The notes beneath the pieces were generated by a model. It was not told where the DNA came from. It searched no databases and saw nothing but the letters and a program-made list of their open reading frames with translations. A stretch of DNA of 22,257 nt, taken from a bacterium. GTDB lineage: Bacteria; NPL-UPA2; JAUVJM01. Every line of letters starts with the position of its first letter. Within the stretch, counting starts at the first letter, position 1. The translations under genes were made by a program, and so were the position numbers. The DNA is taken from the NCBI GenBank assembly GCA_030606215.1, contig JAUWGW010000026.1, positions 1 through 22,257 on the forward strand. Reading direction: 5' to 3'. This document shows, piece by piece, positions 6,552-12,097 of this stretch.

Positions 6552-6622
6552 TTGTCATTCTGAGTTGGGAATGTCGTTCTGAACGGAGCTTCTTGTCATT
6601 CTGAGCGTAGCGAAGAATCTCC
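6552..6622 (+). repeat. Palindromic-repeat left arms (three head-to-tail, partly degenerate)
   Basis: Three copies of the same arm occur in series: TTGTCATTCTGAG at 6552-6564, a variant TGTCGTTCTGAACGGAGC at 6572-6589, and the fullest copy at 6593-6622, running from TTGTCATTCTGAG to AAGAATCTCC. The same sequence forms the left half of the complete palindrome at 12035-12097, and its reverse complement is at 10934-10968. It ends directly at the ATG of the GIY-YIG gene. This is a dispersed intergenic palindromic (REP-like) family. The 44 bases between the radical SAM stop and this block hold nothing recognisable. Confidence 0.85.
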
Positions 6623-6907
6623 ATGAATGAATACTATGTTTACATCATGACCAATAAATCCAAAACCCTCTACACGGGTATTACTAATGACCTGGAGAGA
6701 CGTGTTTTTGAACACAAAAACCATTTGGTTGAAGGATTTACAAAGAAGTATAGGATTACAAAACTTATTTATTATGAAGCGACTAACGATGTACAGGAAG
6801 CAATCGCTCGGGAGAAGCAGATCAAGGGGTGGTTACGGAAAAAGAAGATTGCGCTCATCAAGTCAATGAATCCTGAATGGAGAGATTTAAGTAGTGAAAC
6901 CTCTTAG
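6623..6907 (+). CDS. GIY-YIG superfamily endonuclease, stand-alone single domain
   Basis: 94 residues, nearly all a GIY-YIG nuclease domain of the small UPF0213/YhbQ-like group. The first motif is YVYIM (residues 5-9), the second LYTGIT (16-21). R27 and H31 lie on the following helix (DLERRVFEHK), and E64 in AIAREKQIKGW is the expected metal-binding glutamate. The end NPEWRDLS is typical of this subfamily. All catalytic positions are present, so it should be an active DNA nuclease or nickase, although the family's physiological role is poorly known. Its ATG directly abuts a palindromic-repeat arm, with no good ribosome binding site. The stop lies inside the next gene (14-bp overlap), so it is linked to the restriction enzyme. 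Possible roles are a repeat-associated mobility or homing-type nuclease, or a repair enzyme; the choice is inference. Confidence 0.88.
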   Translation: MNEYYVYIMTNKSKTLYTGITNDLERRVFEHKNHLVEGFTKKYRITKLIYYEATNDVQEAIAREKQIKGWLRKKKIALIKSMNPEWRDLSSETS

Positions 6908-9900
6908 AACATATTTCAAGAGAATACTTGAAGTATCTATGCGAGGGGATGCGAGAGAAGAGAGTTACTACTCTTCTCTGGAAGATTTGCTCAAAAGTTA
7001 TGCTGAAGATACTGACAAAAAACATGTTTATATCACTACGCTCCCCAAAAAGACTGAAGCAGGCAATCCTGATTTTCGCATATGGGATGGAAAACAACAC
7101 ATAACTGGTTATGTTGAAGCAAAAGCCCCCACTACTGAAAATCTTGACCATATTGAGGAAACTGACCAACTTAAAAGATATCTTAAAACCTTTCCCAATT
7201 TAATCCTCACCAATTTCTTTGAATTCAGACTATACAGGAATGGCAGATTGCTTGATAAAGTGCAAATTGCCAGACCATTTATCGTTCATAAGTTGAAAAC
7301 TATTCCCCCAGTAGAAAAGGAAGATGAATTCTTTCATTTACTGGACCAATTTTTCTCCTTTTCCTTACCCAGAGTTTATTCAGCTAAATCACTTGCTATT
7401 GAACTTGCCAAGCGAACCAGTTTCCTGAAAGAGCAGGTTATAGCAGAGGAATTGAGAGAGGAAGAAGAGAAGAAAGGAAAGGGTTTTATCCTGGGATTCT
7501 ATGAGGCTTTTCAAAAACACCTTATTGCTGGACTCACCAAAGAAGATTTTGCAGACCTCTATTCTCAGACTATTACCTATGGATTATTTGCTGCAAGGAC
7601 GCGCTCTAAAAATGGTTTCAATCGCAAATTAGCTTATGATAATATTCCTGCTACTATTGGAATCCTTAGAGATGTGTTTGAATTTGTCTCTCTGGGTGAT
7701 TTACCACTCCAGATGGAGTGGATTGTAGATGATATTTCAGAAGTCCTATCAGTTACTGATGTGAATGGAATCCTTCACAAATATTTCCATGAAGGGAAAG
7801 GCAGAGACCCTATCATCCATTTCTACGAGACTTTTTTGGCAGAATATAATCCTTCTGAACGGGAGCGCAGAGGAGTTTATTATACGCCGGAATCTGTCGT
7901 CTCTTATGTTGCTCGCTCCATTAACATAATTCTAAAAGAACATTTTGATAGAGTAGGTGGATTTGCGAGCGAATCGGTTACAGTTTTAGACCCTGCTGCA
8001 GGAACACTCACCTTTTTAGCAGAGGCAGCTAAACTGGCGGTAGAAGAATTTGTCTCCGAATATGGTGAAGGTGCTAAAGCAAATTTTATCAAAGAGCATG
8101 TTCTGAAAAACTTCTATGCTTTTGAGTTGATGATGGCTCCTTATGCCGTGGGACATTTGAAGATGTCCTTTCTCCTGGAAGAACTCGGCTATAAACTGCG
8201 GAAAGATGACAGGTTTAAACTCTATCTGACCAATACGCTGGAGATGGAAGAGTTAGAAGAGACTTTCTTGCCTGGTATGTCATCGTTAGCTAAAGAGTCT
8301 CATTTAGCAGGAAGGGTAAAGAAGAAAACTCCGATTTTGGTCATACTTGGCAATCCTCCGTATTCAGGGCATTCTTCTAACGTAGGAGAATGGATTTTGA
8401 AGGAAAACAAGGCTTATTACCAGGTTGATGGTAAACCACTCGGGGAAAAGAATCCAAAGTGGCTGCAGGACGATTATGTCAAGTTCATCCGCTTTGCTCA
8501 ATGGAAGATAGACCAGGCAGGAGAGGGCGTTTTAGGGTTTATTACCAATCATAGTTACCTGGACAATCCTACATTCAGAGGAATGCGTCAGTCCTTGACG
8601 GACAGCTTCAATGAAATCTATCTGCTCGACTTACACGGCAACAGCTTGAAAAAGGAAAAATGTCCTGATGGCTCCAAAGATGAAAATGTTTTTGACATCC
8701 GACAAGGCGTGGCTATTGCTCTTTTCATAAAAAAGAAAGACAAGAAGAAAGAATGCAAGGTATACCGGTCAGAGCTTTGGGGATTGAGAGAAAACAAATA
8801 TGATTGGCTTTCAAAAAAGGATATAAGAACAACCAAGTGGAAGAAATTATCCCCAAAATCTGAATTTTATCTTTTCATCCCGAGAGATGAAAAGCTTTTA
8901 GGAAATTATGAGAGGTATCCCAAAATAACCAAAGTTTTCCAGGTGAATAGCGTTGGCATAGTAACATCAAGGGACGGTTTTGTGATAGACCCAGATAAAG
9001 AAGTGCTGAAACGGCGAATCAGAATGTTTTGCGATGGGAGAATGCCAGATACAATCGTCAGACAGACATTCAACTTAAAGGATAAACCAAACTGGAAATT
9101 AAAAGATGTGCGAGAAAAAGTAAGGAAAGATGAAAGCTGGGAGAAATCAATAACCAGAATTCTATACAGACCATTTGATATTCAATGGATCTTTTACCAT
9201 GATGAAGTGATTGAGCGCTCTCGCAAAGGCGTGATGCGTCATATGTTGCAAGGGAACTTGGCTCTATGTGTTGGTAGAGCAGGCCAAGTTGTCGGATTGG
9301 AAAAACCTTGGAATATTGTTTTCTGTTCCGATTGCATTGAAGATCTTAACTTATTCTATCGTGGTGGAAATGTAAATTTTTCCCTCTACCTCTACCCCGA
9401 CACGGACGAAAAAGACCTGTTCAGCCATGCGAAGGAGACAGAGGGAAGACGGCCGAATATTGACTCCGAACTTTTCGCTGCACTCTCTAAAGTTTATAAA
9501 AAGAAACCAACGCCGGAAGAGATTTTTTATTACATCTATGGGGTCATTTATTCCAATACTTATCGCACAAAATATGCTGAATTCTTAAAGATAGACTTTC
9601 CGAGGATTCCTTTCACAGGAAATTACAAATTGTTTGGCAAGATGGCTAAACATGGGAAAACACTCGTTGGTTTACATCTTCTAAAACCAGAAGAACTTGT
9701 CCCACTCATTGCAAAATTTCAGGGAAAGGGTGATTATGGAATTGAAAAGTTGAAATATGAGGAAGAAGAAAAACTCGTCTACATCAACCAGAACCAGTAC
9801 TTTGAAGGAATAGCGAGGAATGTCTGGGAATATCAAATCGGTGGTTATCAGGTCTTAAATAAATGGTTAAAAGACAGAAGAGGGAGGAAATTATCCCTTG

Positions 9901-10022
9901 ATGACATCAAACACTACTGCAAGATAGCCACCGCTTTGAAAAGGACAATAGAAATTCAAAAAGAGATAGACAGGATGTATCCCGAAGTTGAACGGGGGAT
10001 TGTTGAATTTCGAGGAGGATGA
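6894..10022 (+). CDS. Type IIG restriction-modification enzyme (fused nuclease, N6-adenine methylase, specificity domain)
   Basis: 1042 residues. An N-terminal PD-(D/E)xK nuclease is visible as NPD (58-60) and EAK (75-77). A helical linker leads to the N6-adenine methyltransferase: motif I DPAAGT (D366-T371) binds SAM and NPPY (487-490) is the catalytic motif IV. The C-terminal third, including YIYGVIYSNTYRTKYAEFLKIDFPRIPF (from about residue 878) and YQIGGYQVLNKWLKDR, resembles the specificity region of type ISP/IIG enzymes. The helicase found in type ISP proteins is absent, so it should cut without ATP-driven translocation. One chain would methylate and cleave an asymmetric site; the site is unknown. 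Start GTG 6894 has GGAGAG 9 nt upstream and overlaps the GIY-YIG gene by 14 bp. No separate methylase or specificity gene is nearby. The reading frame is intact. Confidence 0.92.
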   Translation: MKPLRTYFKRILEVSMRGDAREESYYSSLEDLLKSYAEDTDKKHVYITTLPKKTEAGNPDFRIWDGKQHITGYVEAKAPTTENLDHIEETDQLKRYLKTFPNLILTNFFEFRLYRNGRLLDKVQIARPFIVHKLKTIPPVEKEDEFFHLLDQFFSFSLPRVYSAKSLAIELAKRTSFLKEQVIAEELREEEEKKGKGFILGFYEAFQKHLIAGLTKEDFADLYSQTITYGLFAARTRSKNGFNRKLAYDNIPATIGILRDVFEFVSLGDLPLQMEWIVDDISEVLSVTDVNGILHKYFHEGKGRDPIIHFYETFLAEYNPSERERRGVYYTPESVVSYVARSINIILKEHFDRVGGFASESVTVLDPAAGTLTFLAEAAKLAVEEFVSEYGEGAKANFIKEHVLKNFYAFELMMAPYAVGHLKMSFLLEELGYKLRKDDRFKLYLTNTLEMEELEETFLPGMSSLAKESHLAGRVKKKTPILVILGNPPYSGHSSNVGEWILKENKAYYQVDGKPLGEKNPKWLQDDYVKFIRFAQWKIDQAGEGVLGFITNHSYLDNPTFRGMRQSLTDSFNEIYLLDLHGNSLKKEKCPDGSKDENVFDIRQGVAIALFIKKKDKKKECKVYRSELWGLRENKYDWLSKKDIRTTKWKKLSPKSEFYLFIPRDEKLLGNYERYPKITKVFQVNSVGIVTSRDGFVIDPDKEVLKRRIRMFCDGRMPDTIVRQTFNLKDKPNWKLKDVREKVRKDESWEKSITRILYRPFDIQWIFYHDEVIERSRKGVMRHMLQGNLALCVGRAGQVVGLEKPWNIVFCSDCIEDLNLFYRGGNVNFSLYLYPDTDEKDLFSHAKETEGRRPNIDSELFAALSKVYKKKPTPEEIFYYIYGVIYSNTYRTKYAEFLKIDFPRIPFTGNYKLFGKMAKHGKTLVGLHLLKPEELVPLIAKFQGKGDYGIEKLKYEEEEKLVYINQNQYFEGIARNVWEYQIGGYQVLNKWLKDRRGRKLSLDDIKHYCKIATALKRTIEIQKEIDRMYPEVERGIVEFRGG
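10012..10018 (+). promoter_or_regulatory. Strong ribosome binding site fixing a TTG start
   Basis: GAGGAGG lies in the last codons of the restriction gene, 5 nt before TTG 10024. It favours that start over the in-frame TTG at 9988, which has no comparable site. Confidence 0.7.
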
Positions 10023-10023
10023 T

Positions 10024-10737
10024 TTGAAAAATATTTTGCGGTTTCTTGGATCAGCTCAGAAAAAAACAACTTCTATGATACGTTTTCTTGATAAACATGA
10101 TGGTTCTCTCATCTTCCTTGCTACCTTTGCTTTGGCAATTATCACGTTTTTTTATCTTGTAGAAACCCACAAATCGAGAGAGCTAATAGAAGAAGACATG
10201 TATAGGCGGTCTTTGCCGGTTATGGTTTGCAATAATCCTGTAAATGAAAAACATGAAGGGAAAGTGATTACCAAAATCAAGGTTACAAATCATGGTGCAT
10301 CTGCTTTTAACGAAAATATAGTTGTTTTTTGGTTTGATGATGATCGACCTATTTTTGAGAATAGAGCTGTTGTGATTATTGAAGGGGCAAGAGTGCCTGC
10401 ATATCGGCTCCAACTCAATCATCCGCCCAATGTGTGGAGAGAAGTAACCTTAGGTTTTTCCAACATCAAACCTAAAATTAACAATCTTAATGATCTCTAT
10501 TTATTAGTGATCGTGAAATATAAAGTGCCCCTATCCGAAGAATGCCTATTCGAGAAATTCTGTTGTAAATATGAACCTGAGGATGATGTTGGTAAGTGGA
10601 AATATATTCCTATCTCTAAAGTGGAAGAGTTGTATGAGAAGGCAAGAACTTTTACTCTGGACAGTAAGGTTTATAGTAAAGAGGTGACTGAAGAAATAGA
10701 AACTTTTTTGAAAGAGTTTTTCCAAAAAAAGCTGTGA
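10024..10737 (+). CDS. Membrane-anchored protein of unknown function next to the restriction enzyme
   Basis: 237 residues from TTG 10024, chosen because of the GAGGAGG site 5 nt upstream; an in-frame TTG at 9988 would add 12 residues and overlap the restriction gene. After a basic N-terminal stretch there is one membrane segment (about residues 28-46, SLIFLATFALAIITFFYLV), then about 190 soluble residues. These contain beta-strand-like segments (KVITKIKVTNHGASAFNENIVVFWF, DLYLLVIVKYKVPL) that could form an Ig-like or similar sandwich, and end in a charged helical tail (EEIETFLKEFFQKKL). I do not recognise the family. The start is 1 bp past the restriction gene's stop, so the two are co-translated. 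That position is suggestive of a defence accessory or effector, but nothing in the sequence proves it. Confidence 0.75.
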   Translation: MKNILRFLGSAQKKTTSMIRFLDKHDGSLIFLATFALAIITFFYLVETHKSRELIEEDMYRRSLPVMVCNNPVNEKHEGKVITKIKVTNHGASAFNENIVVFWFDDDRPIFENRAVVIIEGARVPAYRLQLNHPPNVWREVTLGFSNIKPKINNLNDLYLLVIVKYKVPLSEECLFEKFCCKYEPEDDVGKWKYIPISKVEELYEKARTFTLDSKVYSKEVTEEIETFLKEFFQKKL

Positions 10738-10912: not shown

Positions 10913-10933
10913 CCGCTGTGATATAACATGAAT

Positions 10934-11042
10934 GAGATTCTTCGTCGCTTCGCTCCTCAGAATGACAGTATGAGGCTTACGCTCAGACTTGTCCTGAGTG
11001 AAACGAAGGGATGACAGTGTACAGTATAATGACAGTATGAGG
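10934..11042 (-). repeat. Palindromic-repeat right arms and derivatives
   Basis: The stretch 10934-10968, running from GAGATTCTTCG to CAGAATGACAG, is the reverse-complement version of the arm in front of the GIY-YIG gene. A related arm beginning TTGTCCTGAGTG follows at 10989-11017. The 15-mer AATGACAGTATGAGG occurs twice, at 10961-10975 and 11028-11042; the second copy ends 5 nt before the preferred start of the epimerase gene and supplies its GAGG ribosome binding site. The whole gap is thus repeat-derived. Confidence 0.8.
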
Positions 11043-12034: not shown

Positions 12035-12097
12035 TGTCATTCTGAACGGAGTGAAGAATCTACGAAAGATTCTTCGGGCTTTGCCCTCAGAATGACA
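12035..12097. repeat. Complete intergenic palindrome of the REP-like family
   Basis: The outer arms TGTCATTCTGA (12035-12045) and TCAGAATGACA (12087-12097) pair perfectly. The inner arms AAGAATCT (12054-12061) and AGATTCTT (12067-12074) also pair perfectly around a 5-nt loop, with less regular sequence between them. It starts 6 bp after the epimerase stop. The hairpin could slow or stop transcription, but no T-run follows, so it is not a classical intrinsic terminator. Confidence 0.88.

Follow-up and report, generated by a model that had tools for sequence, protein, structure and literature searches.

REPs, REPINs, the CGTC class of repeats and GIY-YIG proteins are each already known, separately. 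In the closest described system, GTAG-tagged REPs and REPINs go together with a RAYT (TnpA_REP, a Y1 HUH tyrosine transposase; REPtrons): the hairpins are short, tagged, arranged in inverted pairs and dispersed, the nuclease gene is usually single or low copy and flanked by its own repeat type, and a genome may hold more than one nuclease/repeat type. RAYTs are regarded as single-copy genes that do not move (PMC3116915). The CGTC-tagged REPs are recognized by a CGTC or TGTC tag, a stem starting with AT, a CCA tail and head-to-head dimers (PMC3733652), and include dRS3 of Neisseria (PMC3733652) and RPE-4/RPE-6 of Rickettsia (Di Nocera et al. 2013, PMC3733652). That 2013 survey reported no dedicated transposase for them, left the mobiliser open and did not mention GIY-YIG proteins (PMC3733652); a 2025 REP survey likewise does not mention a GIY-YIG link, and our literature search (bioRxiv preprints outside it, few subscription papers within it) found no paper linking GIY-YIG to REP, REPIN, RAYT or CGTC arms.

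The stretch of DNA analysed here (the window, 22,257 nt in full) carries a small GIY-YIG nuclease gene directly behind a REP arm, and a second arm further to the right:

6554..6592, + strand: two degenerate partial arms, GTCATTCTGAGttggg and GTCGTTCTGAACGGAG, 5' of the full arm (sequence and pattern scan)
6595..6619, + strand: left REP arm GTCATTCTGAGCGTAGCGAAGAATC, spanning 6593-6622 with its flanks TT and TCC; GTC tag, then a weak 5-bp stem ATTCT/AGAAT
6622..6630, + strand: 9-bp direct repeat CATGAATGA, left copy, including the GIY-YIG start codon
6623..6907, + strand: GIY-YIG nuclease gene, 94 aa; PF01541 60.6 bits, E 1.9e-16
6894..10022, + strand: type ISP / IIG-like restriction-modification gene; PF18135 310.8 bits, PADLOC REase_MTase_IIG 878 bits
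9988..10737, + strand: 249-aa ORF between the REP halves, family unassigned, without a Pfam, NCBIfam or PADLOC match
10927..10935, + strand: 9-bp direct repeat CATGAATGA, right copy, just inside the right arm
10936..10967, - strand: right REP arm GATTCTTCGTCGCTTCGCTCCTCAGAATGACA; an intact REPIN at another place in the genome (L186) has the same right arm
12036..12096: intact REPIN of the same arm family, GTCATTCTGAACGGAGTGAAGAATC tacgaaa GATTCTTCGGGCTTTGCCCTCAGAATGAC

The full left arm, TTGTCATTCTGAGCGTAGCGAAGAATCTCC, has its last base at 6622 and the ATG begins at 6623, so the adjacency of arm and gene pointed out in an earlier, sequence-only reading of this DNA is borne out. That reading also took the arm for the whole 5' region of the gene, which does not hold, as two partial arms lie upstream (starting at 6554 and 6573), and it overlooked the second arm, the split REPIN with a 4.3-kb block inside it, and the superfamily name, CGTC-tagged REPs. 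The ORF at 6623-6907 belongs to the GIY-YIG superfamily by its PF01541 match together with the conserved Tyr, Tyr, Arg, His/Lys/Tyr, Glu and Asn. Aligned with 30 relatives, the window protein has Y7, Y17, G19, R27, H31, E64 and N83 invariant, and the catalytic residues of GIY-YIG nucleases are kept unchanged throughout. With free-standing GIY-YIG homing endonucleases it shares the catalytic core and a possible spread by cutting a target and then being copied in; unlike them, the window-type protein has no separate DNA-binding domain, and its target would be a multicopy palindrome rather than a unique gene. To our knowledge no repeat association is on record for the single-domain GIY-YIG proteins of UPF0213 / COG2827, which agree with the window protein in size and domain and include the nearest solved structures (PDB 1zg2 and 1ywl; E 5e-6 and 2e-3), but are distant from it in sequence.

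The left arm of the window is one half of a split REPIN, with no partner arm adjoining it. Because the left and right window arms exactly match both arms of an intact REPIN (contig C21), we read the 4.3-kb block, whose leftmost gene is the GIY-YIG gene, as sitting inside that split REPIN; the halves lie ~4.3 kb apart, with the ORFs 6894-10022 and 9988-10737 in between. The arrangement is more than chance, since on the + strand of the window CATGAATGA occurs at the two inner arm junctions only, and a 9-mer common to random junction pairs in such a position has a probability of ~1e-4. The restriction-modification frame begins 14 nt inside the GIY-YIG gene and overlaps its stop, and this type ISP gene is possible cargo of the split REPIN; tblastn found no relatives of it beside the GIY-YIG genes of the other collected loci. 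The block may have entered as a whole, or the restriction-modification gene may be a later arrival. On Planktothrix agardhii plasmid p1 (L235) the neighbours of a GIY-YIG gene are an MmeI-type restriction gene on one side and DISARM drmA on the other, defence genes once more.

The arm core recurs in ~23 copies in the 1.5-Mb genome, and most copies inspected are paired in inverse orientation, as GTCATTCTGA...GAATC and GATTC...TCAGAATGAC with a few bases between them. They are thus arranged as REPINs: two inverted REPs as one unit, dispersed in the genome. A RAYT/Y1 transposase was rejected as the driver here, no PF01797 match being found in this genome (completeness 93%). REPINs of two arm types in the same genome (TTCTGAG and TTCCCGC; L203-L212, L226) are centred in one outer palindrome, GTAAATATTCGGTGAAC...GTTCACCGAATATTTAC, as if nested in a MITE-like repeat; GTAAATATTCGGTGAAC was rejected as the REPIN target, there being no clear empty copy and the 3-mismatch matches being largely chance. 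The window also contains a 300-bp direct repeat (10-309 and 2336-2635, 83% identical), one copy of which overlaps the start of a 784-aa membrane protein gene.

We collected 80 loci, one genome per species, picked by protein similarity only, from Chloroflexi, Planctomycetes, Cyanobacteria, Zixibacteria, Bacteroidetes, Acidobacteria, Nitrospirae, Firmicutes, Proteobacteria, Patescibacteria and other phyla, and scored an arm structurally, as GTC, a five-base stem, a loop, the perfect complement and C, within 120 bp of a gene. Such a hairpin was found at 68 of the 75 testable GIY-YIG genes vs. 144 of the 844 control ORFs of the same loci (p ~2e-39), a strongly positive outcome for the count over many genomes that the sequence-only reading had proposed; likewise TGTCAT or ATGACA lay within 120 bp of 69 of the 75 GIY-YIG genes vs. 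188 of the 844 controls. Enclosure was specific to these genes, with hairpins on both sides of 20 of the 75 and of a single one of the 844 control ORFs. The association was also specific to the subfamily: hairpins accompanied close paralogues in the same genomes (22 of 30, of which two were already in the first set and one pair is almost the same in sequence) and genes from plasmid-collection records (11 of 12), vs. 2 of 27 more distant small GIY-YIG genes of the same genomes. On the strength of the control ORFs (144/844) and the distant GIY-YIG genes (2/27) we reject chance adjacency or REP-rich surroundings. Within the window's own phylum, arms of three different types stood at 3 of 3 close relatives and at none of the four distant ones shown. 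Class-wide samples gave an arm at 18 of 25 genes in Anaerolineae (5 enclosed) and at 21 of 30 in Alphaproteobacteria (8 enclosed), with no enclosed control in either; the rates for any arm at the controls of these two samples are inflated, because the controls neighbour the gene and share its flanks. Over all collected genes an arm was present at 156 of 185, and about a third (67 of 185) were enclosed. The downstream arm often supplies the stop codon of the GIY-YIG frame, which extends into it, giving C-termini such as DSSLRSE from GATTCTTCGCT..CGCTCAGAATGA (L014, L025, L027, L031, L033, L076, L085).

The two arms of a gene match each other. In six multi-copy genomes the upstream arm corresponded to the downstream arm of its own gene, with a score sum of 545 vs. 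382 +/- 27 when arms were permuted within genomes (0/20000 permutations), and in one genome (G306), with ten GIY-YIG copies, the palindrome is visibly different at most of them. Arm and protein covary: between genomes, arm similarity rises with protein similarity (Mantel r = 0.49, 0/500), a correlation partly confounded with host phylogeny. Unlike that correlation, a comparison with paralogues is free of such confounding, and in it arms were closer to those of the nearest protein relative in another genome than to those of paralogues in the same genome (0.458 vs. 0.388), at the modest significance of p = 0.026.

These matched, gene-specific arms, the paralogue-specific repeat types and the REPIN arrangement make the comparison with REP and RAYT, drawn already from the sequence alone, an apt one. 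The nuclease gene here, too, is usually single or low copy and flanked by its own repeat type, several types can share a genome, and the repeats are short tagged hairpins, dispersed and in inverted pairs. The differences are that the tag is CGTC/TGTC and not GTAG, that the enzyme is a GIY-YIG nuclease of 90-100 aa without an HUH/Y1 motif, and that its gene often sits exactly between both arms. Since the Y1 transposase (PF01797) and the GTAG tag are absent, the GIY-YIG/arm pair is not a member of the REP-RAYT system, and appears rather to work like it.

The arms share one architecture, a tag followed by a hairpin. Stems were varied (ATTCT, ATCCT, ATTGC, ATTCC, ATGCT, ATCCC, ACCCT, ATTTC, ATGCC and others), both sides covarying around a constant GTC tag and closing C; the stem variety is the only new information in this, because the search criterion itself required the pairing, the tag and the C. 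In a tag-free hairpin scan of 20 alphaproteobacterial paralogues, GTC preceded 21 of the 64 hairpins and TGG preceded 20 of the 64, TGG being the CCA tail read on the opposite strand. GTC was also the commonest triplet in the first locus set, but at 7 of 53, the weaker signal being due to the TTCTGAG-type stem, which is too short for a tag-free scan; in the window this type has a stem of -1.9 kcal/mol, not better than shuffles.

With the CGTC-tagged REPs the arms share the CGTC/TGTC tag and the head-to-head dimers and, to a degree that depends on the arm type, the stem starting with AT and the CCA-like tail; the arms at GIY-YIG genes belong to, or closely resemble, that superfamily. An 8-9 bp stem starting with AT, a loop of 4-5 and a CCA tail are present in alphaproteobacterial, Neisseria and CCCGC-type arms. 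In the TTCTGAG type of the window the outer stem is 5 bp long and starts with AT, the inner part is imperfect and the tail reads CTCC; this type carries tTGTC, that is, the unpaired CGTC/TGTC tag, and head-to-head inverted dimers predominate among the arms inspected in its genome. The TTCTGAG / TGCGAG arms (window and many phyla) differ from the four families of PMC3733652 in their longer, imperfect inner part. The window type is best called a TGTC-tagged relative of the superfamily, with a weaker stem. A gonococcal relative of the GIY-YIG gene stands amid dRS3-type units, and in S. meliloti, A. lipoferum and N. aromaticivorans, all listed in PMC3733652, a GIY-YIG gene adjoins their arms.

Presence of the unit is polymorphic, with arms at its ends. 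On Sphingobium plasmids the content of one intergenic slot varies: seven records have arm-gene-arm, two have a single doubly tagged hairpin (CGTCACCCCGGGTCAAGCCCGGGGTGACG, from which one of the two differs by two bases) and two have neither. In Azospirillum lipoferum 4B a REPIN-gene-REPIN block separates sufB from sufC; in eleven further Azospirillum records sufB and sufC are present without the gene, and no such block was present in the four examined closely. In Planktothrix the GIY-YIG gene is found in 1 of 10 species at one intergenic site, where no exact insertion boundaries could be fixed, the intergenic DNA being too diverged for alignment. One Acidobacteria MAG holds two copies, 94% identical over the gene, in different surroundings. 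These cases show that the unit was gained or lost, either direction being compatible with them, and in Sphingobium the arms are at or near its ends. No consistent target duplication was found in 70 enclosed arm-gene-arm units; as for end repeats of constant length, the 9-bp repeat of the window lies just inward of the two arms, and none was consistent in the 70 units.

Repeat number goes with the gene in part of the sample. Among Anaerolineae, arms of one pattern had a median of 15 with the gene (n = 17) vs. 0 without it (n = 62), p = 1e–5. Some genomes have hundreds of arms without a close GIY-YIG gene (534 arms in G135, with none detected), and for these the enzyme would be unneeded for keeping arms, or has been lost, or was missed. 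At the other extreme, 4 of the 7 pattern matches in the 4.6 Mb of one genome (G123) fall on the contig that carries the gene, no more than ~500 bp away from it to either side. Most genomes have one or few GIY-YIG copies, so autonomous transposition of the gene-bearing form would be rare at best.

We propose that this GIY-YIG subfamily is the dedicated nuclease of the CGTC/TGTC REP/REPIN family, as RAYT is of the GTAG REPs, and give this reading, of which cleavage and mobilisation are the presumptive parts, a probability of about 0.6; that subfamily and arms are linked in a dedicated way we hold to be nearly certain. For the missing enzyme that would spread or recognise CGTC-type repeats, this gene is the strongest candidate to date; DNA recognition, cleavage and transposition by its product are what we infer from comparing sequences. 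The element would consist of two hairpins in inverted orientation, both with a 5'-(C/T)GTC tag and a C(CA) or CTC end. Its complete form would have one small GIY-YIG gene between the arms (arm - gene - arm, with mostly ~290-480 bp from arm to arm), and its reduced form, the REPIN, would be two arms without the gene. The protein would bind its own type of arm at tag and hairpin, either as a double-stranded cruciform or as a single strand during replication, and nick at the GTC tag; the nick would release or copy the arm-to-arm segment, which would insert elsewhere, and the protein would serve its own unit in cis and REPINs in trans. Such a unit would in the window have become a 4.3-kb insert between REPIN halves, with a further ORF besides the type ISP restriction-modification gene. 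A bolder version, which we hold tentatively and at somewhat short of even odds, is a minimal class of mobile elements in which a stand-alone GIY-YIG protein of ~95 aa is the transposase of its own CGTC/TGTC unit in cis and of REPINs in trans, in many phyla including Neisseria (dRS3), with cargo such as the type ISP gene possible.

The main rival to a dedicated nuclease is homing: a free-standing homing endonuclease would target the REP palindrome, its gene inserting at cut REPINs and spreading by break repair, and something else would multiply the palindromes. GIY-YIG is a classic homing-endonuclease fold, the gene often takes the place of the spacer in an inverted arm pair, the window block is flanked by the two halves of a REPIN and by a 9-bp direct repeat, and the distant small GIY-YIG genes that adjoin tRNA genes and other palindromes fit target-specific insertion. 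We nonetheless consider homing unlikely, given that the arms are gene-specific and differ between paralogues of one genome, that no other mobiliser was found (no Y1 transposase in the window's genome) and that gene copy number is low despite abundant targets.

The low copy number would also suit a domesticated hairpin nuclease that processes or clears REP cruciforms for the host and sits beside its substrate for regulation, without mobilising it; the genes are mostly single-copy with a conserved active site, and RAYTs are likewise thought single-copy and immobile (PMC3116915). However, a gene with a conserved housekeeping role would hardly be so patchy among close relatives or so widely spread over phyla, and this explanation is quite improbable. 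It is harder still to credit that the gene is a passenger that merely inserts into intergenic DNA rich in REPs and is functionally unrelated to them: REPs are indeed intergenic, and abundant in some of these genomes, but the association is absent from control ORFs and distant GIY-YIG genes of the same genomes, the arm pairs are matched and gene-specific, and in G123 4 of the 7 pattern matches in 4.6 Mb are close around the gene.

Under the dedicated-nuclease reading a specific candidate gene is now named for the mobilisation of the CGTC-tagged REPs, which make up one of the two major superfamilies of REPs. If it is true, two unrelated nuclease folds, HUH and GIY-YIG, would independently have come to drive hairpin-tagged repeats, and a role would be found for a very common uncharacterised gene, annotated 'GIY-YIG nuclease family protein'. 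Arm types can be paired one to one with proteins, which opens the mobiliser question to bench testing.

More distant small GIY-YIG genes in several genomes adjoin tRNA gene pieces or nest between them (L171, L172, L174, L175, L179, L181), which suggests a sister GIY-YIG subfamily sitting in tRNA genes. Other small GIY-YIG genes are flanked, on one side or on both, by palindromes of the CCCTTCGACAGGCTCAGGG type (L149, L156, L158, L164), and may represent a second GIY-YIG subfamily paired with a second palindrome class.
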